Assembly (NCBI GenBank): GCA_019359035.1
Contig: JAHHIC010000037.1
Span: 62,001 to 126,000 of the forward strand
Direction of reading: 5' to 3'
Source of the DNA: Scytonematopsis contorta HA4267-MV1
Lineage (GTDB): Bacteria; Cyanobacteriota; Cyanobacteriia; Cyanobacteriales; Nostocaceae
DNA: 64,000 nt
The notes under the pieces were generated by a model. That model saw nothing but the letters and a program-made list of their open reading frames with translations. It ran no database searches and was not told where the DNA came from. Below, in pieces: positions 9,324 to 57,936 of the stretch (positions are counted from its first letter, which is position 1; every line of letters begins with the position of its first letter). Both the position numbers and the translations under genes were made by a program.

Positions 9324-9508
9324 CACATGAAACCCCACCCCCAACCCCCTCCCCGTTTACGGGGAGGGGGCTACGATTATTACCTCATTTTCGTTTCCTC
9401 CCAATCAGAGACACTCTAAGTACGTTTCCGAGAACCACCAAATAAAGTAAATAAATCGTAGCCCCCTCCCCGCAAGCGGGGAGGGGGTTGGGGGTGGGGT
9501 TTCATGTG
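9324..9508. mobile_element. MITE-like inverted-repeat element (type A)
   Basis: About 55-bp arms (9324-9379 and 9453-9508) are near-perfect inverted copies that begin CACATGAAACCCCACCCCC. Each arm also contains an inner CCCCTCCCCG/CGGGGAGGGG palindrome. The 70-bp core has no open frame. A related, interrupted copy lies at 53877-54320. The rest of the 9083-9556 spacer holds nothing recognisable. Confidence 0.75.
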
Positions 9509-17100: not shown

Positions 17101-17213
17101 GTGACTGTTGACTGTTGGCTGTTGACTGTTGACTGTTGACTGTTGACTGTTGACTGTTGACTGTTGACTGTTGACTGTTGACTGTTGGCTGTTGACTGTT
17201 GATGTTGGCTGTT
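17101..17213. repeat. TTGACTG heptamer array
   Basis: About 15 tandem seven-base units, nearly all TGTTGAC in phase with a few TGTTGGC variants. Confidence 0.92.
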
Positions 17214-17285
17214 GGGTTATCCGAAGCGGACGCTACGCGTTCGCGCAGCGTGCCGCTTCGGCATACGTTCCTCAACCCAACCTAC
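17211..17285. mobile_element. Palindromic element D carrying repeat E
   Basis: The outer ends GTTGGGTTA and CAACCCAAC bracket a long internal palindrome (17221-17261) built from CCGAAGCGGACGCTACGCG and its inverse. A second copy of this element, with only half of the inner palindrome, sits in the nested cluster at 54156-54252. Confidence 0.75.
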
Positions 17286-17449
17286 GAATTTTATAGGAAT
17301 TTTCAAAAGGGTCTAATAGGGATTATTTAATTTTGGTAAAGAAGTGAATAATTGCTACCAATATCTTAAGTGATTGGAAACATTTACATCAACCAATAGT
17401 CTGAATAAATAACAACAATAACTAGACAACTCGAAGAGGATTGGATTCT

Positions 17450-46225: not shown

Positions 46226-46400
46226 CAATCCGCAATTCGCAATATGCCTTTATGGGCACGCTACGCGTATCCGAAGCGGACGCTACGCGAACACGCAGTG
46301 GAGCGGAGCGCTTACGCAATTTCCAACTCCCCACTCCCCACTCTCCCCACTCCCAATTAATTGCGAACTGCGAACTGCGAATTGCGAATTGTTTCTCCAC
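46204..46400. repeat. Repeat mosaic after the phytase-like gene
   Basis: AATTCGC-type units (46209-46241) are followed by a repeat E copy (CCGAAGCGGACGCTACGCGA, 46271-46290). Then come CCCCACT units and inverted GCGAACT units (46365-46400). The 46401-46706 stretch holds nothing recognised. Confidence 0.8.
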
Positions 46401-52150: not shown

Positions 52151-53527
52151 TCAATTACGACCGATAAAGCGGGTTGCAAAATTTTGCTCACGTGTGGGTG
52201 AAAGCGCTCGTGCTTTAAGAATCGCAGCCATTAAAAAGGCATAAGCCACTACCCCAACAATTACTAACAGTAGGTTGTTAATTACTCCGGTAGCATTCCA
52301 CAAAGCATGAAGTGCTGATGAGGTAATGTAACCGACTAATAAAATTTGAACACTCCGACGAGGTTTGAGTACAGCCAAGCCAATAAAATAGCCAAAATAA
52401 CCGCTGTAAGCCATATGACCCGCAACAGAACCCAAGATTCTAGGTATTAGAAGTTGCAATCCAACTAAGTCACCAGCCGCAGCAGATGAGCCTGCTTGTT
52501 GTTTTACAGCTAAAGATATCTCTGGCACATACTGTCCAAGTGTTTCTACTAAAGTAAATCCTAAAGCCGAAGCCGCTCCTAATAGAATGCCATCAAGAGG
52601 TTCAGAAACTCCAATACGTTCGCGTAAAGGAGATGGAAGTCCTTTTCCAAACAAATAAGCACCCAGTATAGGTAATGCTTTAAGTAATTCTTCCATCAAG
52701 CCTGCACCAAAAAACATTTTTAAGAATAGTTCAGTGAAAGTTATTGCCTCTCCTTCTTGAGGTATGCGACCAGGTAAAATGTCACGAAATACGTGTATAA
52801 ATAAATCTAATATAGGACTTAATAAAATTAACGTTGTACTACAAGCTGCAGCCATTAATACCCACCAAGGTTTTTGCTTTCCACATAGTTGGTAAATAAA
52901 ATAGTAGGCAGCAGAGGCAATATAGGTGGCAACGATAAATTTGTTTGTATTTGGCTCACCAACCGTAGCAAACATTAATACAACAAACACGACAGTAATA
53001 ATACCTGGTAAAAGATAGGCTTTACGAGTTAAATCTTTACCTGTTGAGGCAATAGGAAAAAGTTGGGTAAAGCTGACAGAATCGTTTCTTGATGGTTTTT
53101 CGTAGCTATTATTTGTTGATATTTGTGTTCTGGAGTTCAAACTCATCACGGTTGCTGGGTAATGAGCTTCTTCGTATTCAAAAATAAATTCTGGGCCGTC
53201 CTGACCCAAGGCAATACGGTCACCAGGGTGTAATTCCTGACTGCCATGCAATCGTTGTCCGTTTAAATAAGTACCATTGGCACTCGTCAAATCATAAATT
53301 ACCCAGCTATTTCCATCAGGAGAACTCCCTAAAGGGCGAATTACGGCATGACGACGAGATACCATACGATATTTGATGGCATCTAATACAATTTCGCAAC
53401 TGGGGTCGCGTCCGATTACCATCTCTTGACTGACCAATAGAGAGTAACGAGATAATGCCCCATATGTTGTTAAGTTAGCAGACGCTAGCCGCAGATATGC
53501 ATTTTTTCTTGCGTATTTGCCTGTCAT
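52151..53527 (-). CDS. FHA domain fused to a PrsW-type membrane protease
   Basis: This is a 458-residue protein. An FHA domain (about residues 28-110) has G39-R40, S57 with H60 in VSRRHAV, and NGTYLNGQ. A linker leads to at least eight membrane segments (from about 170). These carry PrsW motifs: MEELLKALPILGAY (EE-x2-K type, near 279), ETLGQY, HMAYSGYFGYFIG and HALWNATG. PrsW in Bacillus cleaves the anti-sigma factor RsiW. Here the cytoplasmic FHA domain suggests that phosphothreonine proteins recruit or gate the protease. It faces the CHAT-FHA/PP2C genes. Confidence 0.9.
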   Translation of the reverse strand: MTGKYARKNAYLRLASANLTTYGALSRYSLLVSQEMVIGRDPSCEIVLDAIKYRMVSRRHAVIRPLGSSPDGNSWVIYDLTSANGTYLNGQRLHGSQELHPGDRIALGQDGPEFIFEYEEAHYPATVMSLNSRTQISTNNSYEKPSRNDSVSFTQLFPIASTGKDLTRKAYLLPGIITVVFVVLMFATVGEPNTNKFIVATYIASAAYYFIYQLCGKQKPWWVLMAAACSTTLILLSPILDLFIHVFRDILPGRIPQEGEAITFTELFLKMFFGAGLMEELLKALPILGAYLFGKGLPSPLRERIGVSEPLDGILLGAASALGFTLVETLGQYVPEISLAVKQQAGSSAAAGDLVGLQLLIPRILGSVAGHMAYSGYFGYFIGLAVLKPRRSVQILLVGYITSSALHALWNATGVINNLLLVIVGVVAYAFLMAAILKARALSPTREQNFATRFIGRN

Positions 53528-53876: not shown

Positions 53877-53903
53877 TATAAGAAACCCCACCTCCACGGA
53901 CGC

Positions 53904-54001
53904 CTACCGTGTACACATAAGTCTTGAAATAATTCAAAATCTCTCTGAAATACCCCTGAACTTTAGTTCAGGGGTTTATTGGACTTGTGTATACACGGTA
54001 G
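53904..54001. mobile_element. Inserted element B
   Basis: The ends CTACCGTGTACACATAAGTC and GACTTGTGTATACACGGTAG are near-perfect inverted repeats, flanked by CGGACGC on both sides (53897-53903 and 54005-54011), a possible target duplication. The centre holds CCCCTGAAC-TTTA-GTTCAGGGG. Confidence 0.75.
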
Positions 54002-54129
54002 CCCCGGACGCGGAGAGGGGGGCTACGATTTATGGTAAGTATTCTCAAAAATCAAAAATGAACAATATTTCTGTCTATTTTTATCTTTTTTCGTAGCCCC
54101 CTCCCCGCTTGCACGGGTTGGGGTTGGGG

Positions 54130-54290
54130 CAATACTGCGTAGGTTTTGGATTTTTGTAGGTTGGGTTAAGGAATAACGGAAACCCAACTTCTCGGTCACT
54201 TGTTGGGTTATCCGAAGCGGACGCTACGCGAACGTTCCTCAACCCAACCTACGAGTTTTCGTATTTTCGAGCAAAACCTCCGCAGTATTG
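54130..54290. mobile_element. Inserted element C
   Basis: CAATACTGCGTAGGTTTTG and CAAAACCTCCGCAGTATTG are inverted ends. GGGGTTGGGG-like sequence on both sides suggests insertion into the right arm of element A. Confidence 0.75.
54156..54252. mobile_element. Element D inside C, with repeat E inside D
   Basis: GTAGGTTGGGTTAAGGAA and TTCCTCAACCCAACCTAC are inverted ends. Inside, 54211-54233 is repeat E (CCGAAGCGGACGCTACGCGA). The same D arrangement occurs at 17211-17285. Confidence 0.75.
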
Positions 54291-54448
54291 GGGGTTGGGG
54301 GTGGGGTTTTCAAGTACAGGGGGGAGCATATTTTAGCTAATATTTATTTGTCACGCTAGGGCACTTAGAAGTTTAAGGAATTCTGCTAACCAATGGGGAT
54401 AAGCTGGCTATCATAATTTTTATCCTTTTTTTACAGTATGTTAATTCT

Positions 54449-54901
54449 TTAAAATAGATGAAATTCTTTCATAGCTTTAGGAAAATTATTATTTTCGTGA
54501 CTGGGACGACTAAGTTTAATTAAGGCAAAGCGTTGTAATGGTGTTAATTTAGACCAATTTTCTACTGTTAACGAAACGCCCATTTCTTGAGCTTTTTCTT
54601 GAACCGTTGCGGGTACAGTCGAAATTTCCATCCAGGGAGGATGAGGTTCAATCGGTAATTCACCAGGTGGTTTACCAGTTTTTCTTATAATTAAATTTTG
54701 TAAGTATTCGCGATATATTTGAATTTCGTTTTCAGTAGAGCAAGCATGGGACACTAAAGCCTCACGTTCATCAATACTCATATGATTCCAATCCGCTAGC
54801 TTTAGTTTGATTCCACAGGTATCAAGTTTGCAGCGCACTTGCATCGGAATACAACGTAGCGAATCTACAAAATCTGTCTCGAAGTTGAAAAAATCTGCCA
54901 T
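54449..54901 (-). CDS. narM: Nitrate reductase-associated protein NarM
   Basis: This is a 150-residue soluble protein of the nitrate reductase-associated family (MADFFNFETDFVDSLRCIPMQVRCKLDTCGIKLKLADW and so on). In Synechococcus elongatus, NarM is needed for NarB activity, probably in maturation. Its location downstream of narB on the same strand supports the assignment. A psiE-like gene and an inverted-repeat element separate it from narB. Confidence 0.88.
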   Translation of the reverse strand: MADFFNFETDFVDSLRCIPMQVRCKLDTCGIKLKLADWNHMSIDEREALVSHACSTENEIQIYREYLQNLIIRKTGKPPGELPIEPHPPWMEISTVPATVQEKAQEMGVSLTVENWSKLTPLQRFALIKLSRPSHENNNFPKAMKEFHLF

Positions 54902-55549: not shown

Positions 55550-55723
55550 AACCCCTGAACTAAAGTATCCGAAGCGGACGCTGCGCGAACGGGCTAAAAG
55601 CTAAAACCCGTTAAAAACGGGTTGAAACCTTAGATAAAAGTGCGAATTCAAACCCGTTTCAACGGGTTTCAGCTTTTAGCCCGTTCGCGCAGCGTCCGCT
55701 TCGGATACTTTAGTTCAGGGGTT
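55550..55723. mobile_element. Inverted-repeat element that forms the 3' end of narB
   Basis: The ends AACCCCTGAACTAAAG and CTTTAGTTCAGGGGTT are perfect inverted repeats. Each arm also carries repeat E (CCGAAGCGGACGCTGCGCGA) and GGGCTAAAAGCT, with ACCCGTT/AACGGGT hairpins at the centre. The right arm encodes the last 17 residues and the stop codon of narB. Confidence 0.9.
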
Positions 55724-57936
55724 TCTTCTATGTGTACTGGTATCAAATATACCGCACAAGCTTTTAATTCTGGTTGCAGCGAATCAGGACAAGCCTCGGG
55801 ATGGGTTAGAGTGTTTACTTCCGAGTCTTCTGCCCAAAGTGCGCCCCAGTGTATTGGAGCGAACACCGTACCAGGAGAAATTGCCTTTGTGACTTTTGCC
55901 AAAAATCTAGCTTTACCCCGGCTGGAATGGACTTCCACCCAAGATTTGTCAGCTATCCCTAAATTTGCTGCGTCGCGAGGATGAATTTCGATAAATGGGT
56001 CGGGATACATTTTTTGAATTTTTTCGATTCGACCAGTACGGGTTTGAGTATGCCAGTGTCCGTAAACTCTTCCCGTTGTCAGCACTAATGGGTACTCATC
56101 ATTTGGAGGTTCTGCCAGTCCCCGTGAATGTTTGGGAACAAAATTAGCACGTCCATTGGATGTAGGAAAACGAAAATCACTGTATAAACGTTTACTGTTT
56201 GTAGAGACGCGATTAATTGTTGTAGAGACGCGATTAATCGCGTCTCTACCTAGCGGGAAAGGCCACTGTATGGGTGTATTTTTGAGGTTTTCGTGACTAA
56301 TGCCGGTCATATCACAAATACGACCGTTTGTTAGTTGAACAAATTCAGCGTAGACCTCGCTCGATGTGGTAAAAGGAAATTTATCGGCGAAACCTAGACG
56401 ATTTGCTACTTCTACAAAAATCTCCCAGTCGGCTTTGGCTTCTCCGGGTGGTTGACGAAAGGCTTGACATAGGGTGACCACTCTTTCTGAGTTGGTCATT
56501 GTGCCAGTCTTTTCTCCCCATTGGGCAGCAGGAAGTAAAATATGGGCGTAGTCAGCTGTTTCTAGAGGATAGTAAGCGTCTTGACAGATGGTAAAGGGAG
56601 AACTTTTTAGGGCTGCTTTTGTTCTTTCTAAATCTGGTAGGCTAACTGCTGGATTTGTGGCGACAATCCATAAAAATTGAACTTCCCCGCGTTCTAAAGC
56701 TGTAATTATTTCACACGCACTTAAACCTTCGTTCGAGGAAATTTGACCCTTGGGAATTTGCCAAAATTCTTCTAATTCAGCCCGGTGTTGGGGATTTTTT
56801 ACAAGCCGATAACCCGGTAGCAAGCTCGACAATCCCCCAGTTTCTCGTCCCCCCATTGCGTTAGGTTGACCTGTCAGAGAAAATGGGCCTGAGCCTGGTT
56901 TACCTATTTGACCAGAAAGCAAATGCAAATTAATTATGCTACTTACTTTTGCAGTACCTTCACGAGATTGATTAATGCCCATTGACCATAATGAAAGCAC
57001 GCGCTTAGACTCTGCCCAGTATGAAGCGGCTAATTTTAATTCCCCGACAGAAATTCCACAACGTTTTGCTACAACCGTAGGAGAGTAATGCTGTAAAATT
57101 TCGGTGTAGGAAGCAAAGTTATTAGTACATTCATCGATAAATTCTGCATCTATTTCACCCCAACTTAGTAACAGATGAGCTATACCATTGAGCAAGTCAA
57201 TATCTGTACCAGGACGAATTGCTAAGTGTAAATCTGCTGCTTCGGCTGTGGGGGTGCAGCGAGGGTCAACTACTATTAATTTGGTTTGATTATTTTTCTT
57301 TTTGTGCTTGATAAAGCGGTTAAAAGCAATTGGGTGACATTCGGCTGCGTTTGAACCGATAATAAACGCACAATCGGTTAGTTCAAGGTCTTCGTAGCAA
57401 CAGGGTGGTCCATCAGAACCAAAACTTTGTAGATAACCCTTAACTGCGCTTGACATACATAAACGGGAGTTGGAATCGAAGTTATTAGTTCCCAGACAAC
57501 CTTTGAGAAGTTTTTGGGCAATATAATAATCTTCTGTCTGCATTTGACCAGAAGCGTACATGCACAGTGCATCGCTTGTGAAATTTGTGCAAACTGTTTG
57601 AATGCGTTGAACTATTATATGTAAAACTTCTTCCCAGCTAGCACGACGAAATGGTTCATCGAGGGAATTTCGTACCATTGGGTAGAGCAACCTATCTTTA
57701 TCTAACGCTTCTGCGACTGTCGCACCCTTTACACATACCATTCCCTGACTCGACGGGTGAGTGCGATCGCCTCTGACTTTCCAGTTACCAGCAGGGTTTG
57801 CTTTAGTGTAACTGGCTTGATTTTCATTGTTTAATACTTCTAGTCCGCATCCAACACCACAATATGGGCAGAGAGTCTTAACGATATCGATATCAGTCAC
57901 TTTATGCAACCCTTTCACAAAAAAGTCGTTGCTCAT
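55669..57936 (-). CDS. narB: Ferredoxin-nitrate reductase NarB
   Basis: This is a 755-residue cytoplasmic molybdenum enzyme that reduces nitrate to nitrite with ferredoxin. The 4Fe-4S cysteines lie in CPYCGVGCG (23, 26, 30) and MVCVKG. Molybdopterin motifs include [65 protein letters not shown] and [18 protein letters not shown]. Two oddities occur. About 18 residues ([18 protein letters not shown], near 565-582) come from a 28-bp palindrome repeat. The C-terminus [17 protein letters not shown] comes from an inverted-repeat element. Both keep the frame and all cofactor motifs. Confidence 0.95.
56201..56249. repeat. 28-bp palindrome plus partial copy inside narB
   Basis: A full palindrome (56222-56249) and a 17-bp left part (56201-56217) are separated by TGTT. 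Both are read in the NarB frame as INRVST-type peptides. Confidence 0.92.

Follow-up and report, generated by a model that had tools for sequence, protein, structure and literature searches.

Nested repeats in an intergenic region of Scytonematopsis contorta and a putative Tn5-like MITE family with a preference for palindromes

Layout of the locus

The sequence analysed here (the window) is a 64,000-nucleotide stretch (G000:C37:62001-126000) of Scytonematopsis contorta HA4267-MV1, whose draft assembly of 109 contigs totals 10.66 Mb. Between two genes on the minus strand, at 53882-54310, lies a palindromic repeat, A, that is broken by two further repeats, B and C. C contains D, and D contains E. 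The features of the locus and their counterparts elsewhere in the window are listed below.

52151-53527, minus: left neighbour gene, 458 aa
53882-53903: A, left fragment as far as the B insertion point (inverted match to the right arm; intact copy at 9327-9506)
53894-53903: B target duplication, left copy CCACGGACGC, 10 bp, 9/10 identical to the right copy
53904-54001, plus: B, 98-bp MITE with ends CTACCGTGTACACATAAGTC / GACTTGTGTATACACGGTAG (repeat finder; 41 paired copies in this genome)
54002-54011: B target duplication, right copy CCCCGGACGC
54002-54129: A, middle, comprising the left hairpin remainder, the CTACGATT...CGTAG interior and the start of the right arm (compare L016, L024)
54120-54129: C target duplication, left copy GGGGTTGGGG, 10/10 identical to 54291-54300
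54130-54290, plus: C, putative 161-bp MITE with ends CAATACTGCGTAGGTTTTG / CAAAACCTCCGCAGTATTG (repeat finder; 10-bp duplications across copies)
54156-54252, plus: D, two GTAG-tagged palindromes in inverted orientation (GTAGGTTGGGTT...AACCCAACCTAC) in C (repeat finder)
54210-54234, plus: E, small dispersed repeat ATCCGAAGCGGACGCTACGCGAACG in D (33 genome matches)
54291-54300: C target duplication, right copy GGGGTTGGGG
54291-54310: A, right outer arm (54290-54309 identical to intact A at 20/20 positions)
54449-54901, minus: right neighbour gene, 150 aa
9327-9506: uninterrupted A, two GTAG-tagged GC hairpins face to face
17209-17287, plus: right half of D with E and a second E-like unit
46268-46292, plus: copy of E outside any D
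55550-55727: further nested palindrome, a hairpin ACCCCTGAACT (also present in B) around two mirror-image E copies and a further element, F

The product of the left neighbour gene looks FHA-domain-like from its sequence. The original prediction described repeats nested up to four levels deep, with A interrupted by B and by C, and this is the arrangement that we recovered with a repeat finder and by reading the sequence: all five pieces are in place, A, C, D and E make four levels, and A and B make two. The nesting is real. Folded as single-stranded DNA, the 444 nt of the region reach -107.7 kcal/mol, compared with -54.2 (sd 4.5) for shuffled sequences (z -11.8), which is far outside chance. 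No RNA family matched the nested locus, the sole match in the window being a 6S RNA gene at 756-941 on the plus strand (Rfam RF00013, 89.5 bits).

The alternative raised with the prediction was a single composite element, to be recognised by the entire assembly existing as one unit elsewhere. The full 444 nt have no second match in the 10.66-Mb genome, all other matches being to pieces, and no other match covered the full span among the 40 genomes searched with the region, among which there was no sister strain of the same genus. A, B, C, D and E each also occur apart from the others in the genome. We rejected the single composite element because there is no second full copy in the genome and its parts occur alone. 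Among 19 loci with the neighbouring gene that were fetched from relatives, none carried signatures of A, B or E; one had a single C-end match (L158) and one had two D-end matches (L173).

Element A

Copy counts given here and below are for both strands of the S. contorta genome, with the reversed pattern as a control. The A hairpin has 374 genome matches (control 0). An uninterrupted A had been predicted at 9324-9508 and was found within a few bases of those limits, at 9327-9506; others occur outside the window (L016, L024). The interrupted A starts with GAAACCCCACC at 53882, and its middle portion is about 80% identical to the uninterrupted copies at L016 and L024.

In both A and D the tag GTAG stands beside a stem-loop, the units occur as inverted pairs, and there are many copies, so that, judged by sequence, both resemble doublets of GTAG-tagged REPs. 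In the available part of the paper describing them, GTAG-tagged REPs form a superfamily with the cyanobacterial families GTAG-12, -15 and -16, in which GTAG abuts the stem-loop and inverted pairs occur (PMC3733652); A and D are likened to them by this description. A REP-transposase origin of A and D is plausible.

The genome has six HUH (PF01797) matches. A shortened REP-type HUH transposase gene with the motif NHVHYL lies between two A halves at 1389-2240 of L412 (G000:C36), its ATG a few bases past the A tag. The gene may mark the element from which A arose, or it may have been captured. Tagged hairpins flank HUH homologues at none of 29 other loci, which makes L412 a lead only to the origin of A and weakens the candidate explanation, hinted at by L412, that A arose from a RAYT element by deletion. 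It is weakened further by the homologous proteins read from those other loci, which start with a different N-terminus. We found no plasmid relatives of A or B.

Element B and its target duplication

B has terminal inverted repeats of 20 nt (90% complementary) and an inner hairpin, ACCCCTGAACT/AGTTCAGGGGT, at 53952-53975. Its end has 105 genome matches (control 1). At least 41 distinct two-ended copies were found in 113 loci of the genome, B-end loci having been fetched among the 100 of the 105 matches listed. The ends of these copies are constant and the interiors variable: 13 of the 41 have just the small hairpin of the CCCTGAAC or CCCTTCAC type, 12 a CATTGCG-type motif, 8 a hairpin split by F, and the remaining 8 none of the listed types.

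In those 8 of 41 copies (L037, L039, L041, L046, L049, L050, L096 and L103) the loop of the hairpin inside B is occupied by F (GGGCTAAAAGC...GCTTTTAGCCC), and the arms around F mirror each other, instead of being direct repeats, in all except L046. Other copies have a palindromic core, TGTCATTGCGAGGAGGAACGACGAAGCAA, that replaces the small hairpin (L031, L044, L057, L063, L066 and L085). At L019, L039 and L105 the hairpin loop is inverted or altered between the two sides of B (for example, GTAAAC on one side and GTTTAC on the other), and such inverted loops are beyond what simple insertion gives.

The heptamer CGGACGC, present on both sides of B, had been proposed as its target duplication. 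The duplication is real but longer, 10 bp with one mismatch, and CGGACGC makes up its inner 7 nt. Flank identity of the 41 copies is maximal only at 10 bp, where it is 0.551 (permuted mean 0.392, maximum 0.495 in 2000 permutations); among 49 elements with B ends from other genomes, taken from 20 regions hand-picked by paired or IS-length ends, it is maximal at 10-11 bp, at 0.518 compared with about 0.35, the permutation sets including some overlapping pairs (L204, L234, L270). A duplication with at most one mismatch is kept in 10 of 41 copies in this genome and in 29 of 49 elsewhere; with so few duplications kept, many B boundaries must have decayed or recombined. B thus has the features of a MITE: it is gene-free, its inverted ends are those of autonomous insertion sequences, and it has a target duplication. 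The autonomous insertion sequences with B ends were found in other genomes, not in that of S. contorta.

A Tn5-like insertion sequence with B ends

B ends occur in at least 23 of 40 genomes, S. contorta included, and in other Nostocales the 19-bp ends flank intact insertion sequences of about 1.5 kb. Copies bounded by B ends measure 1487-1602 bp (L204, L205, L225, L227, L256-L258 and L260). Two of them, in Scytonema tolypothrichoides (L204 and L205), have an identical set of ORFs and are each 1572 bp between outer ends. Copies of 1487 bp occur in G044, Nostoc sp. LEGE 06077, Nostoc sp. FACHB-152, Fortiea sp. LEGE XX443 and Calothrix membranacea, and G044 has five insertion sequence copies, each with an open 483-aa frame.

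The transposase of this carrier is encoded by a single ORF (480 aa in L225, 446 aa in L256). It scores 389.5 (L225) and 379.5 bits (L256) with the NCBIfam IS4 profile NF033590, for which the cut-off is 160, and 22.3 and 23.7 bits with Pfam DDE_Tnp_1, on either side of the 23-bit cut-off. The catalytic spacing in L225, D-103-D-140-E, lies within the IS4 definition D(60-110)D(100-150)E, and the Y(2)R(3)E(6)K motif is intact (Y334, R337, E341, K348). With phmmer, the carrier transposase matches the Tn5 transposase (PDB chains) over residues 42-470 with an E value of 2.2e-37. The outer end of Tn5 finishes in the 8 nt ACACAAGT, and the B-type ends do the same. The IS50-subgroup end consensus CW------Y---CA-A--W- is matched at 7/7 positions by the insertion sequence and by both B ends in the window; of the other groups in the table of PMC2266710, the part of that paper used here, only IS10 was fully matched, at its 2/2 conserved positions.

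The ends and the transposase are thus kin to those of IS4/IS50 and Tn5. Because its ends bound an insertion sequence with a Tn5-homologous transposase and agree with the subgroup consensus at every conserved position, B is, as judged from sequence, a MITE of a Tn5-like element (IS4 family, IS50 subgroup). In G019, MITEs and the right end of the insertion sequence have a sub-terminal CGCTCTGGGT-TACTTGTGTGTACACCGTAG in common, which we read as a direct sign that these MITEs descend from the insertion sequence by internal deletion. The transposase query found no homologue in the S. contorta genome, and B would have been mobilised in trans by a transposase of the carrier type. A family that looks recently active is present in G009: its six MITEs (L207-L212) have B ends, are 260 bp long and nearly identical, and lie mostly in palindromes.

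Insertion of B into palindromes

In the S. contorta genome, 38 of the 41 B copies are in an A context, at or beside the hairpin loop, compared with 171 of 5000 random positions in the window. The left flanks of the copies outside an A context (L043, L096 and L102) are nonetheless C-rich. Typical sites are CCCCGCAAGC[B]CCCCGCAAGCGGGG (L050) and GTTTACGGGG[B]GTTTACGGGG (L075), and unpaired B ends, read by eye, are mostly beside A-like hairpins.

Palindromy of the empty site was measured by rejoining the flanks and comparing complementarity around the duplication with that in composition-matched shuffles, wherever a duplication could be recognised (at 10 of 41 sites in this genome and 29 of 49 elsewhere). 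It was 0.738 at the ten sites in S. contorta (null 0.484) and 0.777 at the 29 sites of the B family in other genomes (null 0.469), and in neither case was any of 2000 null means as high. The same method applied to 32 C sites as a control gave 0.462 against 0.461. The palindrome centre at the S. contorta B sites is about 2 bp from the centre of the duplication. In other genomes the target palindromes are GC-rich and of varied sequence (CCCCTTAGCAAGGGG, CCCGATTTCGGGG, CTCTCCTACGAGGAGAG and others), and the preference is therefore for the palindrome and not for A alone.

The association of A with B could also have been caused by inheritance instead of targeting, if B entered A a single time and A(B) was then copied as one composite unit. 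Since the A hairpin is more numerous than B, some of the association could indeed come from co-amplified A(B) copies; the abundance of A, with its 374 hairpin matches, fits such copying, and so does L006, where B lies in A's left hairpin at the same spot as in the window. We consider this explanation improbable, because B occurs in either hairpin of A, with interiors and loops that differ from copy to copy and loops that match locally across B, because flank identity at 10 bp exceeds that in all 2000 permutations, and because the same family of B ends is found in unrelated palindromes in other genomes. The recurrence of A and B in one hairpin at L006 is explained by the target preference of B.

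Elements C, D and E

C has terminal inverted repeats of 19 nt (95%) and a perfect 10-bp duplication that was absent from the original prediction. Its end has 208 genome matches (control 31). Flank identity at 10 bp, over unfiltered candidate pairs, is 0.626 in this genome (n=42; permuted 0.285) and 0.578 in other genomes (permuted 0.298). Only 3 of the 22 sites with a good duplication in this genome are in A. We rejected C as a palindrome-targeting element, its 32 sites being indistinguishable from the null, and C inserts into ordinary sequence. No parent of C was found, C itself having inverted ends and the 10-bp duplication; a 2.7-kb pair of C ends in G006 (L341), in which ORFs of at least 80 aa were read by eye, has no recognisable transposase.

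D has terminal repeats of 18 nt (94%), and its end has 227 genome matches (control 0). Among 56 D elements in the loci fetched from this genome, C ends flank 33 on both sides, 11 on a single side and 12 on neither. The 12 solo copies gave no duplication signal, and we rejected D as a MITE with target duplications; the sub-terminal likeness in the flanks of D elements within C is taken to be C's own sequence. A second D had been predicted at 17211-17285. D sequence with E is present there, at 17209-17287, and it is the right half of D only; a tandem array of the heptamer TGTTGAC adjoins it at 17110-17205.

E has no matches in the control for its 33 in the genome. The E motif is in 8 of the 33 D elements within C and in 6 of the 12 solo D elements. 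Small dispersed repeats of about 21-41 nt are dispersed through genomes and insert into other repeats, and Elhai and coworkers reportedly described, in 2008, nested very small dispersed repeats in Nostoc punctiforme. The size of E and its habit of sitting inside other repeats presumably place it with the repeats of that organism. In the nested palindrome at 55550-55727, E is present in both arms around F, at 55566-55591 on the plus strand and 55682-55707 on the minus strand, an arrangement that points to copying from arm to arm or to paired insertion.

L002 has the same nesting of E in D in C, with a duplication of its own. In another genus (G006), C(D) units without E have 10-bp duplications (L319 and L336), and in G012 C ends surround a different core (L322 and L332). 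Because 33 of 56 D elements are within C, because L002 repeats the arrangement and because C(D) occurs in G006, C(D,E) is a recurring unit in itself. D is often the core of C, and E, which joined D later, has since been carried within C.

The layers could also have accumulated one by one at this locus, A being followed by B and C, D then entering C and E entering D. Each layer is indeed found alone, as empty A, as the half D, as E outside any D and as D without E (L017, L319, L336). Such a local history is still less probable than the copying of A(B), given that most D elements are within C ends, 8 of the 33 with the E motif, that L002 repeats C(D,E) with its own duplication, and that C(D) units with 10-bp duplications exist in another genus.

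Order of events

A is older at this locus than B and C, since both break A and both carry duplications of A sequence. The order of B and C relative to each other is not readable, since the interruptions are in different arms of A. The original prediction had A first, then B and C, with D and E inside C; the precedence of A stands, and this locus need not be where D and E joined C. Many copies of C have D, often with E, at one and the same position, so that C(D,E) most probably came in already assembled, E presumably arriving together with C.

The account that we favour, with a probability of roughly 0.8, is that A settled, the Tn5-like MITE B inserted at a palindrome centre, and C arrived carrying D and very probably E. 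A, probably a REP-unit pair spread by a REP-type (HUH) transposase, would have settled between the two genes. B, a non-autonomous Tn5-like miniature, would then have gone into the left hairpin of A, close to the hairpin centre, and made a 10-bp duplication. Before or after this, C, probably a second MITE and one without a palindrome preference, would have entered A's right arm already loaded with D, a REP doublet, and very probably with E.

Growth of the palindromes by replication slippage or template switching at hairpins, with the insertions as transposase-free by-products, would agree with the mirror-image E copies at 55566-55591 and 55682-55707, with the mirrored arms around F in B (8/41 B copies contain F) and with the inverted loops at some B sites, and it is the least probable of the explanations considered, in view of the sharp 10-bp duplications of B and C and the presence of B ends on transposase-bearing insertion sequences.

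Comparison with known systems

That insertion sequences break REPs, some of them at the symmetry axis, is documented (PMC1525189, in the part available). In that part, ISRm22 of Sinorhizobium meliloti, a member of the IS4 family, is at the axis of REP palindromy in all nine copies (Tobes and Pareja 2006, PMC1525189). This is the closest precedent for the B family, with which it shares IS4-family insertion in palindromes. As described there, ISRm22 is a full insertion sequence in one genome with 6-bp direct repeats and REPs as targets, whereas the B family consists mainly of MITEs, has 10-11 bp duplications, and is found in several Nostocales in palindromes of varied sequence.

The carrier insertion sequence resembles IS50/Tn5 in transposase homology over about 430 residues, in the DDE and YREK residues and in the ends (7/7), as these are given in the available part of PMC2266710. 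The B family differs in its strong palindrome preference, in its MITE derivatives and in its duplication of 10-11 bp, which fits the IS4 family (about one helix turn) and exceeds the 8-9 bp listed for the IS50 subgroup in the table of that paper.

Anabaena sp. 90 has many MITEs with no parent insertion sequence in the genome (PMC3542288). Those MITEs are like B in belonging to Nostocales and to a genome without the parent; for B the parent family was found in other genomes, and hairpin targeting is not described in the available part of that paper. According to the accessible portion of a review of MITEs, IS1111 is inside the GTAG palindrome of a Coxiella MITE (PMC10969869). A literature search by title and abstract opening, which took in few subscription papers and is weak evidence of novelty, returned no paper on Tn5-like MITEs in cyanobacterial palindromes. 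Insertion sequences that break REPs are already known; new here is a Tn5-like family, mostly of MITEs, that inserts at palindrome centres across the Nostocales.

Implications

The B family almost always lands in mid-hairpin, and this accounts for the accumulation of repeats in the same places. We suggest tentatively, at a little less than even odds, that a Tn5-like family of insertion sequences and MITEs across the Nostocales homes to the centres of GC-rich palindromes and not to one sequence, other palindromic repeats serving it as landing pads. Several elements bring hairpins of their own, and each insertion would offer the next loop, so that the palindromes could feed themselves and grow like Russian dolls (A, then B, then F) in safe havens distant from genes, outlasting the transposase.

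With these findings an oddity of nested repeats becomes a rule for forecasting where small elements accumulate between cyanobacterial genes. A set of orphan MITEs is tied to a Tn5-like parent with a well-studied DDE transposase, and hairpin targeting is thus testable by existing Tn5 biochemistry. Nested repeats are also not to be read as a simple stack of local events, since pre-assembled units travel together.
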